DNA of 64,000 nucleotides from Rudanella paleaurantiibacter. Its GTDB lineage: Bacteria; Bacteroidota; Bacteroidia; Cytophagales; Spirosomataceae. The position numbers were made by a program, and so were the translations under genes. Positions within the stretch are counted from its first letter, which is position 1, and every line of letters starts with the position of its first letter. This document shows, piece after piece, positions 45,105 to 63,700 of the stretch. The notes beneath the pieces were generated by a model that was given only the letters and a program-made list of their open reading frames with translations, searched no databases and was not told the DNA's origin. Location: the NCBI RefSeq assembly GCF_009184635.1, contig NZ_WELI01000006.1, positions 186,001 through 250,000 of the forward strand. The letters are read 5' to 3'.

Positions 45105-45138
45105 TACTCAATTTATTGGAGTACGAAATGCTGTGAAG

Positions 45139-45162
45139 GCCGGGTGAAAACCCGGCTTTTTT
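45139..45162 (+). terminator. intrinsic terminator after metG
   Basis: GCCGGGT-GAAA-ACCCGGC (45139-45156) with a GNRA-type tetraloop, followed by six T. The rest of the 45105-45476 gap (about 310 bp) is AT-rich and must hold the promoter of the glycan operon; I see no clear -7/-33 pair in it. Confidence 0.88.
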
Positions 45163-45476
45163 ACTTAGTGAGTAGGCCCGTAATGCAGAGAATATGCCCT
45201 ATCGTTACTCGTATTGGTTACAAAATGATCTTGGTATAGTAATAAAATCTGATAGCTTTTGTCGCTGAAATAGCATTAAGAACAAATTAATTATGTGCCT
45301 TTTAAAGCTACTTACAGGTACTGTTGTGTAGAAATATATAGCGACTTATAGAAAAAATGCTATCAAAAAGACCACTTGTTCGAAATAGGACAAATTGTGA
45401 TCTTAAGATGAGTTACTCGGTATATATAAAATAGTCTAAATGGACAGATCTAACCCATCTTTAAAAAATCCATACA

Positions 45477-45977
45477 ATGAAACCGAAGTTCCAACTACTC
45501 ATAGTAGATGAAAGTACCTATGTAGCCGGTATTCTCACGCAAACGCTTGAAAAGGACTTTGAGATAACCGTTGTTAACACAGGTCAGGACGCGGCTCGGC
45601 TATTAATTCAGGGAAATCGGTACGATTGTGTGCTTACCGAGTTGAATCTTCCATTTTTCAGCGGTCTCGAAATCACGAAACTGATTCGTATGAGTAAACT
45701 TATTGCTCATACGCCAATTGTTATACTTTCCAGTGCTACCTCCAGCGACACCCGAATTGAGTGTCTTGAACAAGGCGTTGACAGTTTTATCTCCAAGCCG
45801 TTCAACCCCCTCGAAGTGAAGGCCAAACTCAATGCACTCCTGCGCCGGACGGTTCCCCAAACCGACGAGCGGATGGTGGCCGATCTGGACCGTGCCGAAC
45901 CCAAAAGCGCCTGGCAGCCCAAGTCTCGCTTCCTGTCGATTTTCTCGCGTGGGTACAGTGTGTCGCAAAGTGCCTGA
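45477..45977 (+). CDS. Stand-alone receiver-domain protein with Glu at the phospho-acceptor position
   Basis: 166 residues. Residues 5-122 form a CheY-like receiver: LLIVDES (acidic pair Asp11-Glu12), switch Ser85/Ser86 in ILSSA, and conserved Lys107-Pro108 in FISKPF. The phospho-acceptor Asp expected before LxLP is Glu55 (VLTELNLP), so ordinary phosphorylation is unlikely; Glu often mimics the phosphorylated state. No output domain follows: the last 40 residues are a basic, Ser-rich tail (KSAWQPKSRFLSIFSRG). It is the first gene of the exopolysaccharide operon, 100 bp before a sugar transferase that itself has a receiver-like N-terminus. A constitutive partner or scaffold for that enzyme is a plausible role (inference). 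Confidence 0.88.
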   Translation: MKPKFQLLIVDESTYVAGILTQTLEKDFEITVVNTGQDAARLLIQGNRYDCVLTELNLPFFSGLEITKLIRMSKLIAHTPIVILSSATSSDTRIECLEQGVDSFISKPFNPLEVKAKLNALLRRTVPQTDERMVADLDRAEPKSAWQPKSRFLSIFSRGYSVSQSA

Positions 45978-46077
45978 TTGGTTAGATAGCCCGTGTGTGC
46001 AATTGTCTGGTAAAAACACAGCAATATCTGTGCCAGCATCACGGTGCTAAGTCCTCGTTATACAGCCTCCTTGTTTT

Positions 46078-47268
46078 GTGAATAGTTCGATAAAGCCCAG
46101 TCTTCTCCTGATCGAGGAAGACGACTATATCGTGAATCGACTCATCGATTCATTGGGCGGATCATGCTTGCTCACGCGTTTTCGGAATACAAAACACGCA
46201 GAACTGTGGTTGGTCGGCGCTACTCCGGTAGATCTGATTATTGTAGACCAACAAAGCAGTTTTGGTGTATTGACCCTGGTTCGGACAAACCGAATGCTGG
46301 TGTCGGTGCCCGTTTTGTTGACGAGAGAGCTTGACAGGCAGATCGTTAGAGTTTCATCAACCCCAGGAGTTATGGATATTATTGACGCGGAGGAGCCTGA
46401 CAAACGTATTCGGCAACAAGTAGATTATTACACGGAGGTCTATGACCGATTGAAGCAGGCCCCGGCTCCGGTTGGGGGGCAGACGGCCTTTGTGTTCCGG
46501 TTGCCCTGGTGGAAACGCGCTGTGGATGTGCTGGTGTCATCAGTAGCTCTGATCCTGCTTTCACCACTCCTGCTGCTCGTCGCCATTCTGATTAAACTCG
46601 ATTCGAGAGGGCCGGTTTTTTATCGCTCTACCCGAGCTGGTACCAACTACCGGATCATCAACATGTATAAGTTTCGGACAATGCGGGTCCGGGCCGACCA
46701 GGAAATCACGAGCCTGGCCAGCTCCAATATCTATGCCAAAAGCCCGCAACCGGCCGATTCGGAAGACCCGGCCACCGGCTCATCCACGTTTTTGTGCAGT
46801 GCCTGCCGCGAGCGGGGTGTTGCGTGCCAGCAGCCACTCTTCGACCAGAACCGGCTGATTTGCGAGAAGCTGTACCTGCGCGAAAACGAAGAAGCGGCCA
46901 AGTTTATGAAGTTCCGAAACGACCCCCGTATTACGCGCCTGGGTACGTTTTTGCGCAATAGCAGTATCGACGAGCTACCGCAACTGCTCAATGTACTGCT
47001 GGGCGATATGTCGGTGGTAGGTAACCGGCCCTTACCCCTGTACGAAGCGGAAAAGCTGACCACCAACGAGTCGGCGCAGCGATTTGCCGGGCCGGCTGGC
47101 CTCACGGGGCTCTGGCAGGTAAAAAAGCGGGCTAAGGGGCAGGGGCCTATGTCGGACCGCGAACGAACCGCTCTCGACATTGAGTACGCCCAAACCTTCT
47201 CGTTCAAAACAGACCTATTTATCATGTGGCGGACTCTCTTTAGCTTATGGCAGAAGGAAAACGTGTAG
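46078..47268 (+). CDS. Initiating sugar transferase fused to a receiver-like domain
   Basis: 396 residues from a GTG start. Residues 8-118 are receiver-like: LLLIEEDD (acidic cluster 13-16), IIVDQ with Asp57 at the phospho-acceptor place, Thr81 at the switch position, but no conserved Lys (DAEEP). A membrane helix (about 147-171) leads into the bacterial sugar transferase domain (PF02397) that links the first sugar-phosphate to undecaprenyl phosphate: GPVFYRSTRAG, MYKFRTM (195-201), DPRITRLGTFLRNSSIDELPQLLN (split motif; about 283-306), MSVVGNRP. Between FRTM and DPRITR an enlarged loop carries four Cys (239, 242, 249, 261), spaced like a metal site. The stop overlaps the next GT2 gene by 22 bp. 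Confidence 0.9.
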   Translation: MNSSIKPSLLLIEEDDYIVNRLIDSLGGSCLLTRFRNTKHAELWLVGATPVDLIIVDQQSSFGVLTLVRTNRMLVSVPVLLTRELDRQIVRVSSTPGVMDIIDAEEPDKRIRQQVDYYTEVYDRLKQAPAPVGGQTAFVFRLPWWKRAVDVLVSSVALILLSPLLLLVAILIKLDSRGPVFYRSTRAGTNYRIINMYKFRTMRVRADQEITSLASSNIYAKSPQPADSEDPATGSSTFLCSACRERGVACQQPLFDQNRLICEKLYLRENEEAAKFMKFRNDPRITRLGTFLRNSSIDELPQLLNVLLGDMSVVGNRPLPLYEAEKLTTNESAQRFAGPAGLTGLWQVKKRAKGQGPMSDRERTALDIEYAQTFSFKTDLFIMWRTLFSLWQKENV

Positions 47269-48170
47269 GCGATAAGGCCCCGCTCGTGTCGATGGTGACC
47301 ATCAACTACAATCAGGCCGAAACAACCCGGCAGTTTCTGGAGTCGGTGCGGGCGCTGGCGTACCCGAATTATGAAGTGATTGTTGTCGACAATGCGTCGG
47401 AGCCGAGCCTGAACAGTCAGGTCGATATGGCGCTGTACCCGTGGGCACACGTGGTGCGGAGTGAGGTGAATCTGGGCTTTACGGGTGGCAATAATCTGGG
47501 GATGCAGCACGCGCGTGGGGAGTACTTTTTTATTGTCAATAACGATACGGAGCTGACCCCCAACGTGCTGCATGAATTGCTTCGGCCGTTTGAGGAGTCG
47601 ACGTTGGTGGGCGTGGTATGCCCCAAAATCAGCTATTTCGATAACCCCCGGCTGTTGCAATATGCCGGGTATGGAGCCATGAATATGCTAACCGGAACGG
47701 CGCATATGGTGGGTTGCAACCAAACCGATCAGGGGCAGTTCGACCAGCCGGGGCCTACCCCTTTTGCGCACGGTTGCGCCATGCTCGTGAGCCGGAAGGT
47801 GGTGGAGCAGGTAGGGCGGTTTGCCGAGCAGTTTTTCCTTTATTACGAAGAGCTCGACTGGTCGCAGCGCATCCGAAACGCCGGGTATCAGATCTACTAC
47901 CAGCCGTCGGCTACCATTTTGCACAAAGAGTCGGTTTCGGTAGGTCGGCATAGTACGCTCAAAACGTACTACCTGACCCGTAACCGGATTCTGTTCATGC
48001 GTCGGCATGGCTCACCTGCCCAACGAGCTGCATTTTACGCCTTTTTTGCCGGGGCTGTGCTGCCCAAGCATCTGCTTACATACGCCCTGAAAGGGCAGTT
48101 TGCCCATGCCAGAGCCTTTGCGCGTGGCGTGTTCTGGAACCTGACTTCAGGAAGTACGTCGCCCGTATAA
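47247..48170 (+). CDS. Glycosyltransferase family 2 (rhamnosyltransferase-like)
   Basis: 307 residues, GT-A fold. N-terminal nucleotide-sugar site VSMVTINYNQAETT (about 14-27), VIVVDNAS (about 44-51, first Asp), NLGFTGGNNLGMQHARGEYFFIVNNDTEL (about 75-103, with the NND metal-binding triad). The acceptor half has FAHGCAMLVSRKV and FFLYYEELDWSQRIRNAGY (about 190-208), the ED base and RxxxAGY typical of rhamnosyl/GT2 enzymes of WbbL type. The C-terminus has amphipathic or hydrophobic helices (about 250-280), suggesting membrane contact. It starts inside the sugar transferase gene (22-bp overlap), so it is translationally coupled and probably adds the second sugar of the repeat unit (inference). 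Confidence 0.92.
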   Translation: MAEGKRVGDKAPLVSMVTINYNQAETTRQFLESVRALAYPNYEVIVVDNASEPSLNSQVDMALYPWAHVVRSEVNLGFTGGNNLGMQHARGEYFFIVNNDTELTPNVLHELLRPFEESTLVGVVCPKISYFDNPRLLQYAGYGAMNMLTGTAHMVGCNQTDQGQFDQPGPTPFAHGCAMLVSRKVVEQVGRFAEQFFLYYEELDWSQRIRNAGYQIYYQPSATILHKESVSVGRHSTLKTYYLTRNRILFMRRHGSPAQRAAFYAFFAGAVLPKHLLTYALKGQFAHARAFARGVFWNLTSGSTSPV

Positions 48171-48190
48171 CACCTATTCCACCCTCATCC

Positions 48191-49405
48191 ATGACTGCAT
48201 TCTATTACATACTGGTGGGTTTATTTGCGGGGCTGAGCTTTGTGGTGTTTTACACCTATCTGGGGTACGGCCTTGTGGCCTGGGTGCTCGTAAAACTGCG
48301 CGGTAACCGGTACCAAAACAGCCAACCTGCAGAGTTACCGCACGTAACCATGGTGGTGCCGGCTTACAACGAAGCCGATTATTTGCCCGCCAAGCTCCGT
48401 AACTGCCTCGCTCAGGATTACCCGGCCGACCGACTGCACTTTCTGTTTGTGGTGGAAGGGTCAACTGATGGCTCGGCTGAGTTCCTGGCCCGGCAGGAGA
48501 TACCTAACCTCCGTATTCTGTCGGGGAGTCAACGTTTGGGCAAAATTGCGGCTATGAACCGGGCCATGAGCGAGGTGCAAACGCCCATCACCATTTTTAC
48601 CGATGCCAACACGCAGCTCAACACAGAGGCCGTGAGCCGCTTGGTGAGCCGGTTTACGGAGGGTGTGGGGGCCGTAACGGGCGAAAAACGGATTCAGATG
48701 GCCGACGCCGAGTCGGCTGCGGGCAGTGGCGAGGGCTTGTATTGGCGGTACGAGTCGTTTCTGAAAAAACTGGACGCGCAACTACACACCATTGTGGGGG
48801 CTGCGGGTGAGCTGTTTGCCATTCGCACCGACCTGTACGAACCTGTGGAACCCGATACCCTGCTCGATGATTTTGTGATTTCGCTTCGTATTGCCGGGCG
48901 TGGGTACCGGGTTGAGTATGCCCCCGATGCCTACGCCCTCGAACGCCCCTCGCACTCGGTGGGTGAAGAAAAAAAACGGAAAGTTCGGATAGCTGCCGGT
49001 GGTTTTCAGGCCATGAAACGGCTGGCGTACCTGCTCAATGTGGCGCGTTATGGCTGGTTGAGCTTTCAGTATGTGTCGCACCGGGTGTTGCGGTGGGCCG
49101 TAACACCGTTTTGTTTGCCCGCCCTACTCTTGCTCAATGTCCTGATTCTGGGTGTGCTGTACGTGGGTGATACCCAGATACCGGCGGGCGCGGCCCGGTT
49201 ATGGTGGGGTATGTTGGGGGCTCAGGTTGTTTTCTACGTGGCTGCCTATGTGGGTTATGTGCTCGAAAACCGACAAACCCGCCTGAAACTGACGTTTGTG
49301 CCGTTCTATTTCGTATTCATGAACTGGTGTGTACTGCTGGGGTTTGCCCGGTTCAACCGAGGTAATTTGACGGGTGTCTGGGAAAAATCGAAGCGAGCGG
49401 CCTAA
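48191..49405 (+). CDS. Membrane glycosyltransferase family 2
   Basis: 404 residues: one N-terminal membrane helix (about 4-30), a cytosolic GT2 domain (about 48-280) and two to three C-terminal helices (about 300-385), the topology of processive-type or chitin/hyaluronan-synthase-like GT2 enzymes. Motifs: VTMVVPAYNEADYLPAKL (about 51-68), FLFVVEGSTDGS (about 84-95; the usual DD is VE here), IFTDANTQL (about 137-145, DxD-type), GAAGELFAIRTDLY (about 196) and DDFVISLRIAGRGYRVEY (about 219-236; the ED-equivalent base). A QxxRW motif is degenerate (KKRKVRIAAGGFQ), arguing against a true polymer synthase. Second GT of the operon, 20 bp after the first. Confidence 0.9.
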   Translation: MTAFYYILVGLFAGLSFVVFYTYLGYGLVAWVLVKLRGNRYQNSQPAELPHVTMVVPAYNEADYLPAKLRNCLAQDYPADRLHFLFVVEGSTDGSAEFLARQEIPNLRILSGSQRLGKIAAMNRAMSEVQTPITIFTDANTQLNTEAVSRLVSRFTEGVGAVTGEKRIQMADAESAAGSGEGLYWRYESFLKKLDAQLHTIVGAAGELFAIRTDLYEPVEPDTLLDDFVISLRIAGRGYRVEYAPDAYALERPSHSVGEEKKRKVRIAAGGFQAMKRLAYLLNVARYGWLSFQYVSHRVLRWAVTPFCLPALLLLNVLILGVLYVGDTQIPAGAARLWWGMLGAQVVFYVAAYVGYVLENRQTRLKLTFVPFYFVFMNWCVLLGFARFNRGNLTGVWEKSKRAA

Positions 49406-49447
49406 GCAGAGGCTATTCGACTCAAACTCAACGATTCGAAAAAGACA

Positions 49448-50956
49448 ATGACCCATACTGATTCATTTACCGAAATGCTGATGGACCGGCTCCGGGATAA
49501 AGCCTGGCTGGTGGGGCTGTTCGGTGTGGCCACGGCACTGGCAAGTGGTTGGCTCATTGGAACGATGGGCGTCAAGGGGGCGCTGATTACCGTGGCACTG
49601 CCGGTTGTACTGGCCGTGTTGCTGAGTATTCTGCTCGAACCCCGCATTGGCCTGTATCTGTACATAAACTTCAGTTTTCTGATCGGGGCGTCACGGTTTC
49701 TCGAAAACGAACTTCCGGTAGGGACCGGCCTCGATGGGCTACTGGTTTTTACGTTGCTAAGTGTCTTTCTGAACGGCCGACAGATGAACTGGCGCCGACT
49801 GCACAATCCGGCTTTTTATCTGCTGACTATCTGGCTCGTTTATACCATTTTAGCCTATTTCAATCCCAACGCGCCGTATCCGCCCGCCTGGTTTTATCAC
49901 GCCCGGTCGTACTCGCTCAACTGGTTTTTTCTGGCCATCATTGTGCTGGTTACGCCCATCACGCAAGCCAATGTCTGGCTCTTTATCCGAACGTGGCTGG
50001 TGTGGTCAGTGCTGGCGGCTTTCTGGGGGTTCAAGCAGCAATACATCGGCCTCACACCCGCCGAGCAAAACTGGCTGGCTGCCGGGGCCGAGAAAACCCA
50101 CATTTTGTGGGGACAGCTCCGAAGCTTCTCGTTTTATTCCGACGCCGGGCAGTACGGTTCTGAGATGGCGGGCGTCACATTGGTGAGCCTGATTCTGTTT
50201 TTTCAGGTCAAAAAGATCCCATCGAAGGTGCTCTATCTGGTGCTGGTGCTGGTGTTGTTCTGGGGATACGCCGTTTCGGGAACGCGGTCGTCGCTCTTTG
50301 TGCTCATTGCCGGTTACGCGGCTTACCTGGGTCTTCAACGCAAAATTATCCCCATCATTCAGGGCGTCAGTTTGGCCGCGCCGTTGCTGGCGGTACTGCT
50401 GTTTACCAACATTGGCAACAACGTGTATCAGATTTACCGCATCCGAACGGCCTTGCGCCCCACGCAGGATGAGTCGTTTCTGGTACGGCTGGAAAATCAG
50501 CAGCGCATTCGTAATTACCTCAAAGACCTGCCATTTGGGGCCGGGGTCGGCTCGTCGTCGGGGGCGGGGGTTCGTTTTTCGCCCAATCACTGGGCCGCTC
50601 AAATTCCACCCGATAGCTGGTATGTGCAGCTTTGGATTGAGACGGGTATTGTGGGGGTGGTGATCTACGTCATCATGCTGATGGGTATGATTCTGATCGG
50701 TACGTATCGGCTTTGGCAGATCAAAGACCCCTGGCTGACTACCCTCATGCTGGTACTCTTGTCCGAGTTTATTGGTATTGCCGTAGTGAGTTATTCGAAC
50801 CCTATTATGGGGCAGTTTCCAACCAGTACCATCGTATTTATCAGCTCCATGCTGTTTACGTCGGCCCATCGTTGGGCGCGTAAGCCGGAGCCTTCTGTCG
50901 ACGATTCATTGTTACACCGCGTCCCATCTTACCCCGTACATGGAGCCTTTCGATAG
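49448..50956 (+). CDS. O-antigen polymerase/ligase-like membrane protein (Wzy/WaaL family)
   Basis: 502 residues with about 11-12 membrane helices and a large periplasmic loop near the C-terminal half (about 330-395), the hallmark of Wzy polymerases and O-antigen ligases. In the loop, RLENQQRIRNYLKDLPFGAGVGSSSG...PDSWYVQLWIETGIVG matches the Wzy_C region, with conserved Arg and Asp/Trp residues. GYAVSGTRSSLFVLIAGYAAYL (about 275-296) is the family's helix with SGTRS/A. With the flippase at 59.1 kb this supplies the Wzx/Wzy pair for repeat-unit polymerisation. Its last 17 bases overlap the next GT4 gene. Confidence 0.88.
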   Translation: MTHTDSFTEMLMDRLRDKAWLVGLFGVATALASGWLIGTMGVKGALITVALPVVLAVLLSILLEPRIGLYLYINFSFLIGASRFLENELPVGTGLDGLLVFTLLSVFLNGRQMNWRRLHNPAFYLLTIWLVYTILAYFNPNAPYPPAWFYHARSYSLNWFFLAIIVLVTPITQANVWLFIRTWLVWSVLAAFWGFKQQYIGLTPAEQNWLAAGAEKTHILWGQLRSFSFYSDAGQYGSEMAGVTLVSLILFFQVKKIPSKVLYLVLVLVLFWGYAVSGTRSSLFVLIAGYAAYLGLQRKIIPIIQGVSLAAPLLAVLLFTNIGNNVYQIYRIRTALRPTQDESFLVRLENQQRIRNYLKDLPFGAGVGSSSGAGVRFSPNHWAAQIPPDSWYVQLWIETGIVGVVIYVIMLMGMILIGTYRLWQIKDPWLTTLMLVLLSEFIGIAVVSYSNPIMGQFPTSTIVFISSMLFTSAHRWARKPEPSVDDSLLHRVPSYPVHGAFR

Positions 50957-52133
50957 TATCGTATGTGTTGGTCAGACCACCTGGGAGGGCGACTTCCAGA
51001 AGGCGGTTGTGCAGCTGATGTGTGAGTTCTCCGTACGGCACCGGGTGCTGTACGTCGACTATCAGCATACGTACAAAGATTTGCTGATGGGCGTGGCCGG
51101 GCAGCGCGGGGTGCCGGTCCGAACCATGATGCGGTTGAGTAGTCAGCTGGTAAAAAAGCCGGGGAAAAAGGGGAGTGAGGTGTACGTGTGGCACCCACCA
51201 ACTATGCTGCCGATCAATTGGTTGTCGCCCGAACGGCACGACCGTCTGATTACCTGGAACGTAAACCGCCTGGTGAAGAGCCTGCGGAGCGTGTTGCGGC
51301 AGCTGGGTATGAAACGCCCCCTGATTATCAACGGGATGAATCCGGTGTTTGGCTTGCCCATGCTGCATCAGCTCAACGAGGCCGGTACCATCTATTATTG
51401 TTTCGATGAGATCAGTATTGCCCGCTGGATGAATCGGCACGGCGGACGCTACGAAGATGAATACCTGCGCCGGGTCAATGCCGTCGTGACTACGTCCGAA
51501 ACCCTGCTCCAAACCAAAGCGCTACGGCAGCCGAACGCCTTTTGCGTGAAAAATGGCGTCAACTTCGAGCTGTTTTATCAGGCGCGCCAACTGGCCGAAA
51601 ACCGCCCGCCCCAGAAGCCGGTAGTGGGGTATCTGGGCACGGCCGACAACCGGATCAACGTCGATATAGTGGAGCATTGCGTTCGGGAGATGTCCGACGT
51701 GACGTTTCAGTTTATCGGCGAAATAAAAGAGCCGACCCTGACGGAACGGCTTTCGCGTTACCCCAATGTCGTGTTTACGCCCCCGCATCAGCCCACCGAT
51801 TTACCCCCACTGTTGGCCCGTTTATCGGCAGCTATGATTCCGTTTGTTTGCAACGAGCATACGTACACCATCTACCCGCTCAAAATCAACGAGTATCTGG
51901 CGGCCGGGTTGCCGGTGGTGTCTACACCCTTTTCGATTCTCGATGATTTTGCGGGCGTGGTCGAAATGGCCTCCTCGCCTGAGGTATTTGTGCAGGCCCT
52001 GCGTCGGGCCTTAGCCGATCAAAGCCCCGAGCGCATTGCCCAACGGGTCGATATGGCCCGTAATAACTCGTGGGAGCAGCGTTCGCACGAGTTTGAAGCC
52101 ATCTTTAGGCAACTTATTCTTCAGCATTCATAG
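50940..52133 (+). CDS. Glycosyltransferase family 4-like protein
   Basis: 397 residues, two Rossmann-type lobes. The N-terminal acceptor lobe starts DSIVCVGQTTWEGDFQKAV and has no membrane segment. The donor lobe has GYLGTADNRINVDIVEHC (about 212-229), FIGEIKEPTL, and the GT4-type PLKINEYLAAGLPVVSTPF (about 318-336) in which Glu-x(2)-Ala-G-P replaces the full EX7E motif. Overall style is like TuaH/UDP-galactopyranose-mutase-associated glycosyltransferases. It is coupled to the Wzy gene (17-bp overlap) and is the last gene of this plus-strand operon, 25 bp from the convergent GT11 gene, with no terminator between them. Confidence 0.88.
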   Translation: MEPFDSIVCVGQTTWEGDFQKAVVQLMCEFSVRHRVLYVDYQHTYKDLLMGVAGQRGVPVRTMMRLSSQLVKKPGKKGSEVYVWHPPTMLPINWLSPERHDRLITWNVNRLVKSLRSVLRQLGMKRPLIINGMNPVFGLPMLHQLNEAGTIYYCFDEISIARWMNRHGGRYEDEYLRRVNAVVTTSETLLQTKALRQPNAFCVKNGVNFELFYQARQLAENRPPQKPVVGYLGTADNRINVDIVEHCVREMSDVTFQFIGEIKEPTLTERLSRYPNVVFTPPHQPTDLPPLLARLSAAMIPFVCNEHTYTIYPLKINEYLAAGLPVVSTPFSILDDFAGVVEMASSPEVFVQALRRALADQSPERIAQRVDMARNNSWEQRSHEFEAIFRQLILQHS

Positions 52134-54021: not shown

Positions 54022-55164
54022 CTAAACAGAGGGTGTCGGCTCGCCGACGTGCTGTTGGTAAACTGCCATCAACTGGCAGGCGGTATGTTGCCAGGAGAAC
54101 GCGTTGGCCCGCTCAAGGCCCCGTTCGCGCAACTGCGCCCGCAACTCGGCCGAGTCGAGGAGCCGGTGGAGTTGGTGGGTCATTTCGTCGGTGGAGGCCG
54201 GGTTGGCCAACAGGGCCGCATCGCCGGCTACTTCGGGCATGGCCGAGGTGCTGGCAGTCAGTACGGGGGTACCGCAGGCCATCGACTCCAGAATAGGCAA
54301 CCCGAAGCTTTCGCGAAGAGACGGACACAAAAACACGCTGGCGGCATTGTAAACCACTGGCAGCAGCGTGTTCGGAATGTACCCACACAGCAAAATATCG
54401 TTGGTCAGCGCCCGGCCGCCAATCTGGTCGAGCAAGCCATTGACGTACTCGGCCGATACATTGGCCATCACGAGTGGGAGAGTTAGTAACCCTTTGTTTT
54501 TCAGGATCAATAAAGCCTTCAATACGCCAACGACGTTTTTCTTGGGGTCGGTATTGCCCAGAAAAAAGATGAACTCGGTCGGGAGTCGAAACCGCTCGCG
54601 TACCTGCGCCAGGGTGTCTGCATCGGTAATAACCCGAAACTGCCGACTGACCGCATTGTGCACCGTAACCACCCGCTCGGCGGGCAACCGGAGGTGTTCG
54701 ATAATCCGTTGCCGCTCGTAGTCTGAGACCGTGACAATACAGTCGGCTTTTTTTACAACGGCGGGGACGTTCCAGCGCCGATACCCGTTGCCCAGCCGCT
54801 GATACCAGTTGCCGCCCACGATGGCTTTTTCCAGAAAAATAATGTCGTGCAGGGTAATCACGAGCGGAGCCGAAACCCGCAGCGGGGCCGTGTTGGCCGT
54901 GCAGTGCAGCAGGTCGGGCTGGTAGGTTTTTACGGCTTTAGGCAGCGTAAACTGCTCCCAGAGGGGGTAAGCTCCGCCCGGTAGTTCGATAATCTGAATA
55001 TTTGGGGCCGTAGGCAGACCGGTGCGGTCGGTATCGGGTCGGGCAAATACCAGAAACTCGTGTTGGGGGTACTCGGCCAGGGCGCGAATCGTTTCGACGG
55101 CTACGATATCCATACCGTGTTTGTGGGGACGCAGGAGCCGCTGGGCCTCAATACCAATTCTCAT
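54022..55164 (-). CDS. Glycosyltransferase family 4
   Basis: 380 residues from the ATG at 55164; the longer frame (to 55191) is rejected because the ATG at 55164 overlaps the preceding stop by 4 bases (ATGA) and gives the standard start MRIGIEAQRLLRPHKHGMDIVA. GT-B fold: HCTANTAPLRVSAPLVITLHDIIFLE (about 88-113) in the acceptor lobe; donor lobe with FFLGNTDPKKNVVGVLKAL (about 205-223) and the EX7E motif ESFGLPILESMACGTPVLTA (about 283-302). Retaining nucleotide-sugar transferase of the mannosyl/rhamnosyl type; exact sugar unknown. Second gene of the minus-strand operon. Confidence 0.93.
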   Translation of the reverse strand: MRIGIEAQRLLRPHKHGMDIVAVETIRALAEYPQHEFLVFARPDTDRTGLPTAPNIQIIELPGGAYPLWEQFTLPKAVKTYQPDLLHCTANTAPLRVSAPLVITLHDIIFLEKAIVGGNWYQRLGNGYRRWNVPAVVKKADCIVTVSDYERQRIIEHLRLPAERVVTVHNAVSRQFRVITDADTLAQVRERFRLPTEFIFFLGNTDPKKNVVGVLKALLILKNKGLLTLPLVMANVSAEYVNGLLDQIGGRALTNDILLCGYIPNTLLPVVYNAASVFLCPSLRESFGLPILESMACGTPVLTASTSAMPEVAGDAALLANPASTDEMTHQLHRLLDSAELRAQLRERGLERANAFSWQHTACQLMAVYQQHVGEPTPSV

Positions 55165-55940
55165 GATTCGTCGGGGTGAGCCGGGCACCACCTACTGAAG
55201 CAGGCCGGGTCGATTTCGTAAAAACAAACGGTTTGCGGGCCGTCGGGCAGGGCAAGGGCCGCCGGGTAGCCCTGGTCTACCGAAAAGGGATACACGCGCC
55301 AGTGCCCGTCTGCGCCGAGTAGGCCCGCATCGGTACGGTGGGTGCCCTCCTGCGCCGGAATCGCCATCAGATGGTCGTTCATACCCTGTCCTGTAGCTTT
55401 CATCAAGGCTTCTTTTCGCGTCCAGAACTGGTAAAAAAGGGTCTGCGCATCCGGGCTCTGCACCAGGGCCCGCTGTTCGGCCGGACTTAATATGGACGAA
55501 AAAAGGTCGCTGACGTCAACATCGGCCCGCATAAATTCTATATCGACGCCCACCGGAACACGCCCGGCCGCCAGTACAATCCAGGTCCCAGAGTGTGAGA
55601 TATTGAGGTGGAGCTGCGGGTGGTCGGGCAGGAAGGGCTTGCCCGTTGTGCCCGTATCTATGCGGATTTCTGCCGGATTTTGCCCGGAGAATACGCCCGC
55701 CAGCAGCCTAAACAAGCCCCGCCCGACCACAAACCGGTGCTGGTCGGCCGTGAATCGGAACCGGTCGGCCCGCTCGCGTTCGGCGGGTTGCAGGAGCGTT
55801 GCCCAGAGAGCCACGGTGGCCGCTTCGGTGGGGAGCGGCATTCGGAAAACAGAAACAGTATCGGGAGCTGGCGCGAGGGGCTGTCCGGGTTGCCAGAGTG
55901 CCGAAACCGATGAATGACAAGTGACAAGAGCCGTTTGCAT
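55161..55940 (-). CDS. 4'-phosphopantetheinyl transferase, Sfp type
   Basis: 259 residues from the ATG at 55940 (the frame to 56075 would run into the divergent gene's leader). Sfp-type enzymes attach phosphopantetheine from CoA to carrier proteins of NRPS/PKS or fatty acid synthase. Pseudo-dimer with motifs TGKPFLPDHPQLHLNISHSG (about 125-144; KP..NISHS), VPVGVDIEFMR (about 153-163; metal Asp-x-Glu), and FWTRKEALMKATGQG (about 200-214; WxxKEA). A carrier domain target is in view: the NRPS PCP at about 61.7 kb. It heads the GT operon and overlaps the GT4 gene by 4 bp, an unusual partner for glycosyltransferases. Confidence 0.92.
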   Translation of the reverse strand: MQTALVTCHSSVSALWQPGQPLAPAPDTVSVFRMPLPTEAATVALWATLLQPAERERADRFRFTADQHRFVVGRGLFRLLAGVFSGQNPAEIRIDTGTTGKPFLPDHPQLHLNISHSGTWIVLAAGRVPVGVDIEFMRADVDVSDLFSSILSPAEQRALVQSPDAQTLFYQFWTRKEALMKATGQGMNDHLMAIPAQEGTHRTDAGLLGADGHWRVYPFSVDQGYPAALALPDGPQTVCFYEIDPACFSRWCPAHPDES

Positions 55941-56038
55941 GGGATAAAAGTAAGCGGATTTGAGAAGTTCTGTCGGGTTATTTAATCCATAGCGCAGGTT
56001 GGGTGACTGTGGTAAGCCGCCAACGTCTAAAGAGAAGC

Positions 56039-57037
56039 ATGCCCGCCCATTTTGTATTACGCCTGAAAACGGCAAAACGGCTACGCCGATCTGTTTGCCT
56101 GGTTGCTGGCTGGTTTGGGGTTTTCACCTTTACCACCGGCCAGCACAGTGCTGCCCAGTCGTGTTCGGGTGCTACGGCCGAAGTGCTCATTCGTGAGTCG
56201 TTTGGCACGGCCGAAGCCACGGCTTCGCTGAGTGGCCGCACCTCGTACCAATACGTGACCAAAGCCTGCCCCGACAATGGCGAGTACACCATTGCGTCGG
56301 CCGTTGACCGTACATGCTTCGGCTCGGTTTGGCACGGCCTGCCCACCGACCACACCGGCAATGCGGGCGGAGCCATGCTGATTGTGAACGGGTCGGATAG
56401 GCCGGGTGAATTTTTCCGGCAAACTATCCCCGGCCTGTGCGGGGGCACTACCTACGAGTTTTCGGTGTGGGGCCTCAATCTACTTCAGCCTAATAATTGT
56501 ACCGATTCTTCGCTGCCCAACCTCACCATCGAAATCGAAACGGCGGGAGGTCGCCCGCTTCGGCGCATCGATATTGGGTCTATCCCCGAAACGGTTACGC
56601 CCGAATGGCGTCGGTTTTCGGCTTCGTTTACCATGCCCGAAACCGATGAGCCCGTGTTGGTCAAACTCATCAACAATGCGGCTGCCGGTGGCTGTGGCAA
56701 TGATTTGGCCCTCGACGATCTGGAGCTGATTCGGTGCAGTGCCTGCCCACCCGAACCGGTGTATGTGCCCGATGCCTTCACCCCGAATCACGACGGACAC
56801 AACGACCGATTGGCCATTTATCTGGCCGAAGCGGTTTCGGTCGATATTAAGATTCTCGACCGGTGGGGGAGTCTTGTTTTCGCCAGCAATACCTTGTCGG
56901 AGCAGTGGGATGGCCGGTTTGGTGGTGTTGACTGCCCGCCGGGTGGGTACACCTGGATGGTCACTTACCGGGTTGCCGACTCGCCCACTACTACGTCTAC
57001 CTACGTCCGGTCGGGGCGTGTGATGCTGCTTCGTTAA
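56039..57037 (+). CDS. Secreted protein with type IX sorting domain (CHU_C / gliding motility-associated C-terminal)
   Basis: 332 residues from the ATG at 56039. A basic N-terminus and hydrophobic helix form a signal peptide (ending around HSAAQ, residue about 40). The middle (about 45-235) is a beta-sandwich with several Cys and the ENGT-like pattern of Bacteroidetes adhesins (GDNGEYT-type CPDNGEYTIAS, FRQTIPGLCGGTTYEFSVWGLN), CBM/discoidin-like. The C-terminal ~85 residues are a type B T9SS sorting domain: VYVPDAFTPNHDGHNDRLAIY, VDIKILDRWGSLVF, WDGRFGG, PPGGYTWMV. So it is predicted to be exported by T9SS and anchored or released at the surface. Three bases separate it from the glycosidase-like gene. 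Confidence 0.9.
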   Translation: MPAHFVLRLKTAKRLRRSVCLVAGWFGVFTFTTGQHSAAQSCSGATAEVLIRESFGTAEATASLSGRTSYQYVTKACPDNGEYTIASAVDRTCFGSVWHGLPTDHTGNAGGAMLIVNGSDRPGEFFRQTIPGLCGGTTYEFSVWGLNLLQPNNCTDSSLPNLTIEIETAGGRPLRRIDIGSIPETVTPEWRRFSASFTMPETDEPVLVKLINNAAAGGCGNDLALDDLELIRCSACPPEPVYVPDAFTPNHDGHNDRLAIYLAEAVSVDIKILDRWGSLVFASNTLSEQWDGRFGGVDCPPGGYTWMVTYRVADSPTTTSTYVRSGRVMLLR

Positions 57038-57040
57038 TCC

Positions 57041-59143
57041 ATGAAACCCTATTTTTTATCCTTGTCGGTGGTGTGTGTCGGGTTGTTATTTCTGCTCGAC
57101 GGCCCCCGTCGGCATGCTACACAAACGCCCGCATCGGTCCCTGTAGCCCGGCTCAAGCCCCACCAAATCCCCATCGACGGCCAACGTTGGTATCAAGTAG
57201 TGAATGCCCAGAATGGTCTCGCGGGGTTGTTCGACGGCATTACCGATCAGGCGGTACATACCGGGTACAACAAGCTGCTGAAAAATTACGATGCGTACTA
57301 CCCGCTGCGCGAGGGCGAAACCATGCGCATCGACAGCATCCGGCTCTACGATTATACCGATACGAATACCGATGCTCCGTTGACACTCTCGATCATCACC
57401 GCCGATTGGCAGCGAATACCGATTGCCCGGTTTATTGGCGATAAATACAAAGAATGGGTAGGCCCCGACCCCGCCCGCCCGAACACGTTTGCCCTGCCCA
57501 AGTCCGTAACCGGCGCCCGGTATCTGCTCCTGAATACGTCGGGCGCGTACCCATCGGAACTGGAGCTGTACGGTACTTACACGCCCGGCAAACAGCCCAC
57601 TAAAGCCCCGGCCCGCACGGGGACGCCGTTTCGGCAGGCCGTAGGGGTAAATATGTTCGAGTGGAATATGGAAGAGGCCGCCCGCTCGTGGGAGATTGAC
57701 GAGAGCCGGGTACCGGCCATTCGGGGGTTTGGGGCGGTACGGCACTACATGGATTGGGAAAAACTCGAAGCCCAACCCGGTCAGTACACCTACAACCTGA
57801 CCCTTAGCGGAGCCTGGAATTACGATGCTCTGTACGAACGGCTCCACCGCGAAGGGGTGGAGGTGCTGGCTTGTCTGAAAACGATTCCGAAATGGATGGA
57901 ACATACGTACCCGGCCGGGCAACGCGATTACGGCAACAACCCGGCTCCGTACGGCCGCGACCTGAGTAGGCCGCAATCGTACATCGAACAGGCACGGGTG
58001 GGATTTCAGTACATAGCCCGGTATGGGTCTAACAAACAGGTGAACCCCGCGCTGGTGAAAATCAGTACGGTAAAAACTTGGATGCCGCCCAATGAGAAGA
58101 AAATCGGGCTGGGCCTTATTCGCTACATCGAGTGCGAAAACGAGCGCGACCGCACCTGGGGCGGGCGTCAGGGCTACCAAACGGCCCGCGAGTACGCGGC
58201 TAATCTGTCGGCGTTCTATGATGGGCACAAAAACACGTTGGGGCCGGGCGTGGGCGTTAAAAACGCTGACCCGACCGTAACCGTCGTGATGGGCGGGCTG
58301 GCTTCACCAACGCTCGATTACCTGCGGGCTATGGTCGACTGGTGCCGCGAACACCGGGGCTACCGGCCCGATGGGCGGGTTGACCTTTGCTGGGACGTAA
58401 TCAACTACCACCTGTATGCCAACGACGCCCGTTCGTCGCAGGGCGGTGGGGGTACGCGCGGGGCTGCCCCTGAAGTGTCGGGTGTGGGTGAGCAGGCGGC
58501 CGCTTTTGTGCAACTGGCGCACGAACTGGCCTATGATATGCCTGTATGGATTACCGAAACGGGCTACGATACGCACCCCGGCAGTCCGTTTCATGCCATT
58601 CCGATTGGTGCTAAATCGGTGTTGCAGACCCAGGCCGACTGGATTTTACGGACGTCTCTCCTGTTTACCCGCGTGGGAGTGGCCCGCACGTTTTTCTACC
58701 AGTTGTACGACGATAACCCAAACAACCCGACTCAGTTTAGCTCGATGGGCCTCATCAACGGAAACAAAACCCGCAAGCCTGCGGCCGATTATCTGGCGCA
58801 GGCGCTCCGGCTCATGGGCAATTACGAGTACCGCCAAACCGTCAGCCAAAACTCGGTTGTGGTTGACCGTTACGAATACCGGGGCCAAACGTCCTATGTA
58901 TTGGTTGTTCCCGACGAGCAGGCCCGTACGGCTACGTACACGCTGCCCGTTCGGCCGGGCGATACCGTGCGCGTGTGCATCCCCGCGGCTGGCCGCGAAA
59001 CTATGCCCTGCACCAGCCGCGTAGCTACGTCGGGGCAACTGACGCTGACCGTAACCGAAACACCCACGTTTGTGATGTTGGGTAAGCCCGCAACCGGCCT
59101 CCGCGCACAAACCTCTCCATTGAAGACCTCTGCACCCCAATGA
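57041..59143 (+). CDS. Exported glycoside hydrolase-like protein, clan GH-A TIM barrel
   Basis: 700 residues. N-terminal hydrophobic segment (4-20) is a signal peptide or anchor. Residues about 45-190 form a beta-sandwich of F5/8-type/CBM style (GLFDGITDQAVHTGYN, DSIRLYDYTD, ARYLLLNTSGAYPSELELYGTY). The catalytic-type barrel covers about 200-600: RGFGAVRHYMDWEKLE, ALYERLHREGVEVLACLKTIPKWM, then IECENERDRTW (acid/base Glu about 364, after Asn in 'NE') and MPVWITETGYDTH (nucleophile Glu about 505). This two-Glu arrangement at strands 4 and 7 is that of clan GH-A (GH5/GH39-like). A small C-terminal beta domain ends the chain. Coupled to CHU_C gene upstream and Wzx downstream (4-bp overlap), so it may trim or modify the exported glycan (inference). 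Confidence 0.85.
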   Translation: MKPYFLSLSVVCVGLLFLLDGPRRHATQTPASVPVARLKPHQIPIDGQRWYQVVNAQNGLAGLFDGITDQAVHTGYNKLLKNYDAYYPLREGETMRIDSIRLYDYTDTNTDAPLTLSIITADWQRIPIARFIGDKYKEWVGPDPARPNTFALPKSVTGARYLLLNTSGAYPSELELYGTYTPGKQPTKAPARTGTPFRQAVGVNMFEWNMEEAARSWEIDESRVPAIRGFGAVRHYMDWEKLEAQPGQYTYNLTLSGAWNYDALYERLHREGVEVLACLKTIPKWMEHTYPAGQRDYGNNPAPYGRDLSRPQSYIEQARVGFQYIARYGSNKQVNPALVKISTVKTWMPPNEKKIGLGLIRYIECENERDRTWGGRQGYQTAREYAANLSAFYDGHKNTLGPGVGVKNADPTVTVVMGGLASPTLDYLRAMVDWCREHRGYRPDGRVDLCWDVINYHLYANDARSSQGGGGTRGAAPEVSGVGEQAAAFVQLAHELAYDMPVWITETGYDTHPGSPFHAIPIGAKSVLQTQADWILRTSLLFTRVGVARTFFYQLYDDNPNNPTQFSSMGLINGNKTRKPAADYLAQALRLMGNYEYRQTVSQNSVVVDRYEYRGQTSYVLVVPDEQARTATYTLPVRPGDTVRVCIPAAGRETMPCTSRVATSGQLTLTVTETPTFVMLGKPATGLRAQTSPLKTSAPQ

Positions 59144-60579
59144 GCAACAAAGAAAAGGCCATGGATGGCGGTAAATGGATCACGTTATCGACCGTGATCT
59201 CAACCGTGTTTCAGTTTGCGCAGGTCGCCCTGTTGGCCCGCCTGCTCAACCCGGCCGATTTTGGGGTAGTCAGTGTCAGCAACCTGATTATTGGCTTCTT
59301 CGGCGTGTTTGCCAACCTCGGTTTTTCCAACTCGATCATCTACAAACAGGAGAGCGACCGCACCGTACTGTCCACACTTTACTGGCTCAATATGCTCGTG
59401 GGGGCGTTCATTTTTGTGGTGATTCAGCTGGCAACACCCGCCATTGTCTCGTTTTACAGCGAGCCCCGGCTCGAACGGGTGCTGCATCTGTCATCGGGCT
59501 ATTTTCTGATTGTGTACATTGGGCAGCTGTACATGTTTTTGCTCGAAAAAGAGCTGCGCTTCCGGTCAGTTGCAACTGTCGATATTGCCGGAACCGTGAT
59601 TGGTGCGGGGGCTACGATTGTGTTGGCATACAGTGGTTTTCAGGAGCTATCGCTGATTATTGGGCAGTTGATCAGCCAGACCGTGAAGAGCGCCACGCAG
59701 GTAATTCTGGGTCGCCGGTATTTTAAGCCCGCCTTGCGGTTTTCGCTCAATCAGGTGCAGGAACACCTGCGTTTTGGCGTGTATAACCTGGGCGACGGGA
59801 TTCTGGGGTTTGTACAGTCTAACGCCGACAATTTCTTTATCGGCAGCATTCTGGGCGTGAAAATGCTGGGCTATTATACCCTGGCGTATCAGTTGGCTGT
59901 TTTTCCAATCAACCGGCTGAACCCCATTATCTTACAGGTGGCTTACCCCATTCTGGCCAAGATGAAGGACGATATTGAAGGGCTGAAACGAGCCTATCTG
60001 AAAATCTTGGACGTGCTTATTTTTTGTAATCTGCCCTTGCTGGCTGGCTTGTTTATCACCGCCGAAAGTGTTGTTCCGCTGATTTACGGGCCGGGCTGGC
60101 AGGAAACGACCCATCTGATTCAGATTTTCGTTTTCGTAAGCCTGTTTGCCTGCCTCAGCCACCCGCTGTTTACGCTGGCGTTTACGCGCGGCAAGCCCAA
60201 CCTTTTGTTTTATCTAAACCTGGCTACTCTGGTGGTGAAGATTCCGCTCGTGTATGTGCTGGGGCATTTGTACGGGGTAACGGGCATTGCCCTTTCGTTT
60301 CTGCTGGCGACCTTCTTCAACCTCGTGGCCAACTTTTTTCTGGTGCACTACCTCGTGGGCGATTTCTTCGGGCAGTTTCTCAAAAACTTCGTGCAGCCGT
60401 TGCTGTTTGGGGTAATCATGGTAGCGGTGATTGCCGCGTATAAAACCCTGGTAGGGTATGAGGGCATGGTGCATACCGTAGCGCAGATAGCCCTTGGGGG
60501 CCTTACGTACGTGAGCCTGACCCTCGCCTTCAAGTTTTCGTTTGCCGATTTGCGGGCTCTGCGTTTGGCTAAAAGCTAA
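59140..60579 (+). CDS. Lipopolysaccharide/exopolysaccharide flippase (Wzx, MOP superfamily)
   Basis: 479 residues with about 14 membrane helices. Wzx-type flippases move undecaprenyl-linked repeat units across the inner membrane. WzxC/Polysacc_synt_3 features: GGKWITLSTVISTVFQFAQVALLARLLNPADFGVVSV near the N-terminus (split motif), FANLGFSNSIIYKQE (about 60-74), ADNFFIGSILGVKMLGYYTLAYQL (about 230-253) and VYVLGHLYGVTGIALSFLLA (about 372-391). Start overlaps the glycosidase-like gene by 4 bp. With the Wzy-like protein it completes a Wzx/Wzy route. Export partners (Wza, Wzc) are absent from the window. Confidence 0.92.
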   Translation: MSNKEKAMDGGKWITLSTVISTVFQFAQVALLARLLNPADFGVVSVSNLIIGFFGVFANLGFSNSIIYKQESDRTVLSTLYWLNMLVGAFIFVVIQLATPAIVSFYSEPRLERVLHLSSGYFLIVYIGQLYMFLLEKELRFRSVATVDIAGTVIGAGATIVLAYSGFQELSLIIGQLISQTVKSATQVILGRRYFKPALRFSLNQVQEHLRFGVYNLGDGILGFVQSNADNFFIGSILGVKMLGYYTLAYQLAVFPINRLNPIILQVAYPILAKMKDDIEGLKRAYLKILDVLIFCNLPLLAGLFITAESVVPLIYGPGWQETTHLIQIFVFVSLFACLSHPLFTLAFTRGKPNLLFYLNLATLVVKIPLVYVLGHLYGVTGIALSFLLATFFNLVANFFLVHYLVGDFFGQFLKNFVQPLLFGVIMVAVIAAYKTLVGYEGMVHTVAQIALGGLTYVSLTLAFKFSFADLRALRLAKS

Positions 60580-60746: not shown

Positions 60747-63700
60747 CTAACTCTCATCAAGGGCTTTTTGCAGAACCCGGGCAAATTCCTTGTCGTTGGG
60801 GGGGAGCAGCATGGTGGCATGGTCGCCCGGAACATCGTGGATGTGCAGCCCCCGGAGAGCAAATTTCTTCCAGCCCAGAAATTCGCGGTCTTCGATGTAG
60901 TAGAGCCGTTTCCGAGCCTTGAAAACATGAATTTCCCCGTCGTATGGCTGAATCCGGTAGGTGTGAAACGCCGTTTCGTGCTTCTCCATCATCCGTTGCA
61001 GATGGTCGTCGAGGGGCATGGGCTCGTTGTTCGCCAGGCCCACGGCCTTCAACACGCCTTTTACCTGCCGCTCTACGTATTCGCCCTGATACCGGAGCGT
61101 CGGAATCGGGTCTTCGAGCAGCGACCGGCCAATCCAGGCCATTTTGGGGATCTGCCGACCTAAACGCCACGTCAGCCGACTCAGGAACGGGCGGCTTTGG
61201 GTTGAGTCTTCGGCGTTGGTATCGAACATGCCAAGCAACTTCACCACTTTGCCTTGCTGCTGCAACTGCCGGGCCATTTCGAGGGCTACGTACCCGCCAA
61301 ACGAGTAGCCCGCCAGCGCGTACGGGCCGTTGGGATCGTGTTCGAGTAACTCCTCAATATAGTCGGCGGCAATAGCCTCCATGCTATCAAGGGGCTCCTC
61401 GGTACCGTCGAGACCGCGGGCCTGAAACCCGTAAATGGGCTGCTCGGCGTCCATGTGTTCTACCAGCCCTTTGAACGTGAGTAGATTGAGCCCTCCGCCA
61501 TGCACCACAAAGATCGGGGGCTTGCTCCCGTACGGCTTAATAGGCACCAGCGACCGTTGCAGACTGTATGTCTGGTCGGGCTGAATAAGCCGGGCCAACG
61601 CCCGAATAGTGGGTGCTTCGAACAGGGTAGACAGCGGTAACCGCCGACCGGTTTCGCGTTCGAGTTGCGCCATCGCCCGCACAGCCAGCATAGAGTGCCC
61701 GCCCAACTCAAAGAAGTTATCGTCCACGCTGATGTTCGGTAGGCCAAACATCTCCTGCCAGATAGCGGCTATCTGTTTTTCTTCGCGGGTGCTGGGCTCG
61801 CCCGAGGGTTTCGGGGCGGCTTCTTTTCGGGCGAAAGCTGGGGCAGGCAGGGCTTTCCGGTCAATTTTACCGTTGGCCGTTACCGGTAGTTTGGCCAGCG
61901 CCACAAAATCAGTGGGCACCATGTAGCCGGGCAGCGTTTGGGCCAATTGTTGCCGCCACTGCCCTATTTGCTCTTTAGTGAGGGTGGGCGTTGCGCGGTA
62001 GGGTTCGCTCACGAGTGAGCTGAGGGGCTGTTGTATCCCTTCGGTCAGCCCGGTCGGCATTGGGGGTAACTGGGCACTGGCTGTTTCGGGGATAAAAACG
62101 ACATCGAGTGCATTGTCGTGCCCATCCGACGCCCAGCGCACAAAAGCCCGGAATCCCGTTTGCTCGGCCAATTGCCAGAACTGGTTTGGGTCAATGCCCG
62201 CCGGAATCTGGGCCAGTCGTTGCCGAATCGGCTGAATAGATGCCAGACTGTCGGCTTCGTGGAGCCAGTTTCGCAGGGCATGATCGGCCGCTGTACGCCC
62301 GTTGGGTACGCCTGTGAGCCGTACGCCCGCCAGCGGATGCTGACGTAAGTGCCTTTCCAGAGCCTCTACGGACCCTACCGTATCCCAGTCGAGCGTAGTA
62401 GAGACCTCAGCCGTTGCCGGAGCCTCGCCCACGTATAGCCACACATCGAAGTGATATTTGGTGGTTTCGTTGATGGCCGCGCCTTCGCGGATCTGCACAT
62501 CAACCGCCGAAATAGCGGGTATCAGGCTCGGTAATTGGTAGAAAAACGCCGGGTCGGCCATGAGCTCGTCGTCGAGCCGGATGCGCCGGTTCACGGCATC
62601 CCGGAAATCGGCGACCCGTTGAGAGTCGGCGGCTCGTTTAAACTGATCGGCGGTGTGATGTTGCTCCTGAAGGCGGTAAATCTGCATATCGCCCACCAGT
62701 ACACAGCCGCCCGGTGCGGTAGCCGCCACGGCCCCCCGAATTACGTCGAGCAGATAGCGCAGATCGGGGAAATACTGGGCTACACTGTGCACCAGTACCA
62801 GGTCCTGCGAGGCCGGTTCAACCATCGAATAGTCGTCGGCGAGGGCCACCTGCGCCCGGATCTGCCCTTGTTTGGTCAGGTTGCGCCGGGTGAGTTGCTG
62901 GTTCAGGTTATCGATGGCCGACTGGGCGTAGTCGGTGGCGAGGTAGCTATCGGCTTCGGGGGCCAGTTCAAACAGCAATTGCCCGGCCCCGGAGCCTACT
63001 TCCAGAATCCGACGGGCGTGCAGGGCTTTGATCCGTTTGATCGATTGTTTCAGCCACTCGTCGGCCTGCTCGCGGATGTCTGTCTGGTCGGAGAGCTGCT
63101 CGGCAATCCGAATGTCCAGATCGGCTACATCGGCGGGGTCGGCATTGGGGTCGTTGAGGCCGGCTTCGTAAATGGCATCCCAACGGCTTTTCCAGCCCGC
63201 ATCGCCTTCATCGGCGGGGCTGCTACCCGGCACCACGTAGGCCACGAGTCGTTGGTCGCCGGGTTGGTCTTCGCGGGCCATCACCACGGCATTGTCGATA
63301 CCCGGCAACCGAAGTAGCTGGTGCTCAATTTCGCCCGGTTCAATCCGGTGCCCCCGAATCTTGATCTGCTGATCGATCCGGCCGAGGTACTGAATATCCC
63401 CGTTGGGCAGGTATCGGCCCAGATCGCCCGACCGGTAAAACCGCTCGCCCGGTGCGAACGGCAACGTGACAAACTTTTCGGCCGAAAGCTGCGGCTGGTT
63501 GAGGTAGCCTGCCCCCACACCCGCCCCGCCAATGACCAGTTCGCCCGCCATCCCGTTGGGTAGGGGCTGGAGTTGCTCATCAACAATCACAATGCGCACT
63601 CCACCGATTGGCGGGCCAATGGTGATGAGGTCGTCGGTGGGTAAAATCGTCTTGCCCGTTGCGTAGACCGTTGTTTCGGTTGGGCCGTAGTAGTTATACA

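Follow-up and report, generated by a model that had tools for sequence, protein, structure and literature searches.

A stand-alone pseudo-receiver encoded beside a receiver-fused phosphoglycosyl transferase in Spirosomataceae: a possible regulatory pair at the start of exopolysaccharide synthesis

The DNA analysed here is a stretch of 64,000 nucleotides from Rudanella paleaurantiibacter (the window), in which metG is followed by a hairpin, a gene for a stand-alone receiver (RR1), a 100 bp gap, a gene for a phosphoglycosyl transferase (PGT) and a series of glycan genes. RR1 (45477..45977, + strand) is a pseudo-receiver of 166 aa whose C-terminal tail (residues 126–166; 45852..45974, +) is disordered in the AlphaFold model. 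The second gene (46078..47268, +) encodes REC'-PGT, a small monotopic PGT of 396 aa with a receiver-fold N-terminus, composed of the REC' domain (about residues 1–130; 46078..46467, +), a receiver fold with a degenerate active site, and the catalytic domain (about residues 144–396; 46507..47265, +). Within the latter, a four-Cys insert (C240-x2-C243-x6-C250-x11-C262; 46795..46863, +) is found between the KFRTM and DPRIT stretches. For both genes, the coordinates and reading frames given in an earlier note on this DNA were correct. The genes 3' of the PGT encode two GT2-type glycosyltransferases, a Wzy_C-type protein and a group-1-type glycosyltransferase (47247..52133, +), and a flippase-type gene is located at 59140-60579. 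Also near the polysaccharide genes are a 4'-phosphopantetheinyl transferase gene (55161-56075, −) and a large ORF that by eye resembles a non-ribosomal peptide synthetase module (60747-63986, −).

The hairpin, which lies 3' of metG and is followed by six T (45139..45162, +), was picked out by eye and then by folding (45125-45170; −19.1 kcal/mol, z −4.34); it is absent from the listing of the consensus scan, and its support comes from the folding. It is likely a terminator that splits metG from the receiver gene. The genome of the window has four PF02397 matches, and a search with the RR1 profile found no receiver in the stretches around the other three, taken with 1.5 kb flanks (L002-L007). 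Elsewhere in this genome, an export cluster is likewise opened by a receiver (L305:4250-9092; G000:C33): a stand-alone receiver ORF of 147 aa, which by eye retains Asp and Lys, overlaps a Poly_export (wza-type) gene by 4 bp and is followed by wzc-like and flippase-like ORFs (both by eye).

RR1 belongs to the receiver family, with a match to Pfam Response_reg (PF00072) at E 1.5e-20 over residues 8–118. Its AlphaFold model has a receiver fold, with a mean pLDDT of 84 and values of at least 92 in each ten-residue block up to residue 120, and was matched by Foldseek to solved receivers at E 2e-10 and up; as these structures include activated receivers as well as others, we assign no conformational state to RR1. 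The key residues are D11, E12, E55, S85 and K107. The stand-alone receiver described in the earlier note, with Glu55, a switch Ser (Ser85) and Lys107, was therefore recovered by Pfam, by the model and by the residues themselves. With Glu55 at the phospho-site and Glu12 in the Mg site, RR1 does not have the make-up of a phosphorylatable receiver. No DNA-binding domain was found in RR1 by Pfam scan or in the AlphaFold model.

The distribution of the pair was surveyed at three levels, where family, order and phylum are taken in all counts as the Spirosomataceae, its order and the Bacteroidota, respectively; Spirosoma accounts for 14 of the 17 named loci among the close relatives of the window. 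Within the family, 100 of 150 genomes had a match at E≤1e-60, giving 110 loci. One of these (L128; G118:C163) has a PGT gene with two in-frame TAG codons and an RR1 upstream, and was excluded from the set of 109 PGTs while being included among the 103 RR1s. RR1 was found directly upstream on the same strand in 103/110 family matches, with a gap of −94 to 359 bp; the seven loci without it comprise two at contig ends (L022, L122) and five others (L129-L133). At the order level, 95 of 291 genomes matched at E≤1e-70 (family members included), and 61 of the 71 outside-family matches were sampled, in 60 stretches with the best PGT taken per stretch. RR1 was adjacent in 45 of these, fused to the PGT in eight and in neither arrangement in seven. 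One of the seven (L223) is a split PGT gene with RR1 12 bp upstream of its front piece, and the RR1 of one locus counted as paired (L209) is degenerate and scores weakly (63 bits), with His at position 55. The phylum sample consisted of 26 examined loci from the 31/395 genomes that matched at E≤1e-90, four of which repeat order-set genomes, and RR1 was adjacent in 18/26. The recurrence of receiver and transferase in this gene order, a prediction of the earlier note, was thus borne out at each level, and by these counts the pairing is no accident.

In the eight order stretches with a fusion (L173, L180, L205-L208, L210 and L211, all belonging to f18, one of the families of the order), a canonical receiver that keeps the acidic pair, Asp, Ser or Thr, and Lys is joined to the PGT, and the stretches have no other same-strand RR1 match. 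The Cys insert is missing in six of the eight. In these fusions the pair occurs naturally as a single chain. In 17 of the 45 order pairs the PGT ORF was short (<370 aa) and did not include a complete fused module, so linkage of RR1 to a PGT does not require this module. Strictly at the level of gene linkage and fusions, then, a single-domain response regulator is linked here to an initiating PGT, as in the EpsW/EpsZ system of Myxococcus xanthus, for which a 2025 report describes a single-domain receiver that controls the initiating PGT through direct contact (PMC12802240).

The PF02397 match in the window transferase (E 1e-56) covers residues 146–390. The catalytic motifs, D150/P163 (DX12P) and the dyad D298/E299, were invariant in 81 aligned relatives, and K198, R293, R317 and D379 were likewise invariant in the PGT relatives. 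DX12P and the DE dyad are given as monoPGT motifs in PMC12802240 and, along with the PglC-like fold, identify the protein as a monotopic phosphoglycosyl transferase. It is not of the large EpsZ/WbaP type, having 396 aa, a receiver fold at about residues 1–130 and no match to PF13727 (the DUF) up to E 0.1. According to PMC12802240 and PMC10942596, a TMH bundle and a DUF precede the catalytic domain in large monoPGTs; this is the place that REC' occupies.

The catalytic domain is extended by an insert, with 245 residues vs 177 profile positions, and this carries the four cysteines (C240, C243, C250, C262), a feature the earlier note did not mention; pLDDT in the insert was 68–89 per ten-residue block. 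All four Cys were present in 104 of the 109 family PGTs, and the five without them (L129-L133) are also those without an upstream RR1. A looser four-Cys pattern was found in the order in 40/45 paired, 2/8 fused and 2/7 other PGTs. Since the phylum sample had some PGTs with the Cys but no neighbouring RR1 and others with RR1 but without the Cys pattern, the link between the two is not strict. Judging from its pattern, the insert could bind metal or sense redox state.

The N-terminus of the window transferase had no Pfam match of its own; nonetheless, several results agree with the receiver-like fold suggested for it in the earlier note. Response_reg matches at E≤0.01 were found in this region in 27 of 81 REC'-PGT relatives, profiles of REC'-PGT and RR1 aligned over 128 columns in hhalign (probability 99.5), the model has five beta-alpha units (residues 8–127), and comparison with solved receivers gave Z 15–17 among the matches listed. 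Asp57 is present and Lys is missing at its expected place, as had been noted; the Thr, previously placed at 81, sits at residue 82. Across 109 relatives, however, position 57 was Asp in 23, with Asn (38), Ser (19), His (16) and Gly (8) also occurring, and the acidic pair, Thr and Lys were all variable. REC' is thus not a phosphorylatable receiver, and Asp57, which had been put forward for a conservation check, was rejected as a conserved switch; with this Asp not conserved, REC' would be no working switch.

The earlier note had suggested that RR1 and REC' may pair and gate the first committed step; in the form considered here, REC' Asp57 would be phosphorylated. This Asp is indeed commoner beside RR1s of the Glu55 type (13/25 loci) than beside those with Asp55 (4/77), yet it is missing in 12/25 of the Glu55 loci themselves, and most relatives have Asn, Ser, His or Gly in a variable surrounding. 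The likeness between the two modules is also in favour of such a pair: the REC' profile scored a median of 49.2 bits on the 103 family RR1s, 54.9 on the 45 order RR1s and 47.3 on the RR1 of the window, compared with a median of 25.0 on the 30 best-scoring (Pfam) of the 94 receivers of the genome. These scores lean towards REC' being a duplicate of RR1, yet one of the 30 genome receivers, at 49.8, equals the median RR1. With the active-site columns as they are, we consider phosphorylation of REC' as the gate highly improbable.

Among the 103 family RR1s, 78 have Asp at position 55 and 25 have Glu; among the 45 from the order, 44 have Asp and one has His. The phospho-Asp is gone in the RR1 of the window and kept in most relatives. 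Glu55 as a universal feature of RR1 is ruled out by these counts, and an ordinary Asp, which the earlier note had named as evidence against its own reading, is present in the majority of orthologues, which makes Glu55 a clade-specific state. Residue 12 was non-Asp in 25/25 Glu55 RR1s and Asp in 76/78 Asp55 RR1s (the others being one Gly and one gap). The statement that RR1 keeps the acidic pair is therefore loosely right, in that D11 and E12 are both acidic, but residue 12 is Glu where nearly all Asp55-type relatives have Asp. S85 and K107 were kept in 103/103 family RR1s, although Ser85 is not absolute, as a named locus outside the 103 (L051) has Glu55 with Ala85.

On a quick tree built from the PGT catalytic domain, with RR1 not included, the Glu/Asp state at position 55 required 3 changes vs a shuffled mean of 23.4. 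All 25 Glu55 rows fell within one clade of 57 rows (support 99), and the 21-row subclade of the window (support 98) held 19 Glu, one row without RR1 data and one Asp (L021), the latter combined with Gly12. The RR1s of the order suggest that Asp55 is ancestral; Glu55 either had a single origin, followed by reversion to Asp in 30 rows, or originated more than once. The association of Glu55 with loss of Asp12 involves few events, and the pair test, with 2–3 independent pairs, has no statistical power.

At matched identity, variability in the beta3-alpha3 loop, beta4 and beta5 was greater among Glu55 RR1s than among Asp55 RR1s; it was lower in beta1, beta2, alpha3 and alpha4 and about equal in the KPFNP loop and alpha5. 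This comparison was devised post hoc on data already seen. The tail also differs between groups. Past residue 124 it has 31–48 residues in the subclade of the window (the 19 Glu rows and L021), 9–26 in the six other Glu55 RR1s and 2–27, most of them short, in the Asp55 RR1s except L021. Over 14 rows, likeness was 0.45 for the last 22 residues of the tail, 0.20 for the linker and 0.71 for the receiver, so that the end of the tail is moderately conserved within this subclade. It is tempting to speculate that the tail binds the membrane or the enzyme.

Kinase neighbours were counted for distinct RR1s with at least 1.5 kb of upstream sequence, as same-strand ORFs of at least 250 aa scoring at least 100 bits against a kinase profile within 2 kb. 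Such an ORF was present upstream of 15/65 family and 12/40 order Asp55 RR1s and of 0/33 Glu55 RR1s (Fisher p 0.002 for the family contrast, relatedness not corrected). All nine kinase ORFs that were scanned contained HisKA and HATPase_c, with a receiver also in eight and Hpt in three. Because 50/65 family and 28/40 order Asp55 RR1s also stand without a kinase neighbour, absence proves little, and with 94 receiver matches in the genome, distant kinases may serve.

Loss of Asp12, the absence of an adjacent kinase and the greater variability of three elements of the fold would all be expected if RR1 in the clade of the window were a remnant in decay that no longer influences the PGT. Against such decay, the Glu55 RR1s of ten genomes retain Glu55, K107 and the KPFNP loop at a mean mutual identity of 0.55–0.66, the tail with its conserved end is present and the gene order is maintained; we regard a remnant as unlikely.

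Eleven family genomes had two matches, and ten of these were compared, the second match of G112 being left out. In 10/10, the two RR1 types were divided between two PGT subfamilies, Glu55 with one and Asp55 with the other, and both RR1 and PGT resembled the same type in other genomes more than the second pair of their own genome. Paralogous pairs matched by type in this way argue for partnership and for distinct roles. They also bear on a reading in which RR1 regulates gene expression or another protein and has only a transcript in common with the PGT. With 100 bp between them in the window, the two genes could be linked by co-transcription alone, but this would leave aside the type-matched pairs and the eight receiver-PGT fusions (from one family of the order), and RR1 is without a DNA-binding domain; a separate target therefore seems very unlikely.

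Based on these results, we lean towards RR1 being the regulatory partner of the initiating PGT, with the phosphate step lost in the clade of the window, Glu55 as its stand-in and REC' in a structural or docking capacity. By analogy, the window pair is best read as a Bacteroidota counterpart of EpsW/EpsZ in which kinase control would be replaced by an active-like pseudo-receiver. In the usual module, a histidine kinase would phosphorylate RR1, and RR1~P would bind and stimulate the PGT. In the clade of the window, Glu55 would replace the phosphoryl group, with the Mg site altered and the phosphate step lost, and RR1 would serve as an active-like subunit, with PGT activity set by how much of it is supplied or by some other signal. 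REC', in the place of the large-monoPGT DUF, would most likely have a structural or docking function within the PGT and not that of a phospho-switch. We infer the RR1-PGT contact, the activation, the active-like state and the role of REC', with direct activation suggested by linkage, the fusions and the EpsW/EpsZ precedent. That precedent also keeps plausible the direct, non-transcriptional gate on the transferase advanced in the earlier note; its two matched switches are weakened by the lack of a conserved phospho-site in REC' and by the short PGTs of the order pairs.

The kept Ser85 and Lys107 would fit Glu55 as a phosphomimic. Glu replacing the phospho-Asp is common in aspartate-less receivers and pseudo-receivers, and Glu at this position is described as able to mimic the phosphorylated state in part in many regulators, a role disproved for some pseudo-receivers (PMC12632262). 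Earlier work cited in PMC12802240 found that substitution of EpsW D58 abolished function; a partner that has lost the Asp could thus just as well be inactive or under a different kind of control. Alternatively, RR1 might be gated by a ligand, by redox state or by its partner REC' instead of being constitutively active-like. The switching of bacterial pseudo-receivers is called a mystery in a 2025 review (PMC12632262), the fold, Ser and Lys of RR1 are kept, and the possible metal or redox chemistry of the four-Cys insert would suit such gating; the insert, however, occurs with Asp55-type and Glu55-type partners alike and so is no stand-in for phosphorylation. We hold gating of this kind to be rather doubtful, and the active-like partner described above is still preferred.

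A more far-reaching version of that preferred reading, which we offer tentatively, is that in one Spirosomataceae clade a kinase-controlled PGT activator was turned into an always-active-like subunit by the change to Glu55, the loss of both the Mg-site Asp and the neighbouring kinase and, in the subclade of the window, the gain of the tail, with the four-Cys insert as a possible second control point. The new tail may then tie RR1 to the membrane or the enzyme. If true, a phosphorelay output would have been rewired into a phosphate-free one in a single Spirosomataceae clade. The RR1-PGT pair touches on the wider question of how undecaprenyl phosphate is rationed at the first committed glycan step. 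Direct action of a receiver on the initiating enzyme was reported in 2025 from myxobacteria as a previously unrecognized mechanism (PMC12802240), and pairs of this kind are seen here across many genomes from a second phylum, where intact phospho-receivers, fusions and a Glu-type clade all occur. The Asp-type and Glu-type pairs found together in at least 10 genomes are a natural test of how a pseudo-receiver works.

Among known systems, the catalytic domain of the window PGT is close to PglC, the prototype of small monoPGTs (PDB 8e37; Z 21.9, rmsd 2.4, 178 residues), but nothing in the 185-residue chain of PglC corresponds to REC', and the window domain has the insert. Receiver domains on small monoPGTs were recorded in the survey of O'Toole 2021, as cited in PMC12802240; compared with these, the fused receiver of the window is degenerate and lies beside a second, stand-alone receiver. 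RR1 differs from the pseudo-receivers described in PMC12632262 and PMC4395418 in standing alone, in having a PGT partner and in the C-terminal tail of its subclade, and the main text of PMC4395418 has no occurrence of 'sugar', 'glycosyl' or 'polysaccharide'. Among the open-licence papers listed by the searches, no description was found of the Bacteroidota RR1-PGT pair, of the Glu-type clade and its tail, or of the four-Cys PGT insert, for which the metal-site search was too broad to show absence.

The closest parallel is EpsW/EpsZ, where a single-domain response regulator is likewise paired with a PGT that starts an exopolysaccharide of the Wzx/Wzy type. PMC12802240, whose main text does not contain the term 'bacteroid', describes phosphorylated EpsW near EpsZ in vivo and a rise in EpsZ activity with EpsW in a heterologous host. 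Control there is post-translational and by direct contact, as we infer for the window pair. EpsW acts when phosphorylated (DifE; D58), whereas the RR1 of the window has Glu and no adjacent kinase, and EpsZ is a large monoPGT with a TMH bundle and DUF, whereas the window PGT is small, with REC' and the Cys insert. The action of a receiver on an initiating PGT is thus already published, and the Bacteroidota pair with its Glu-type clade would be a variant of it.
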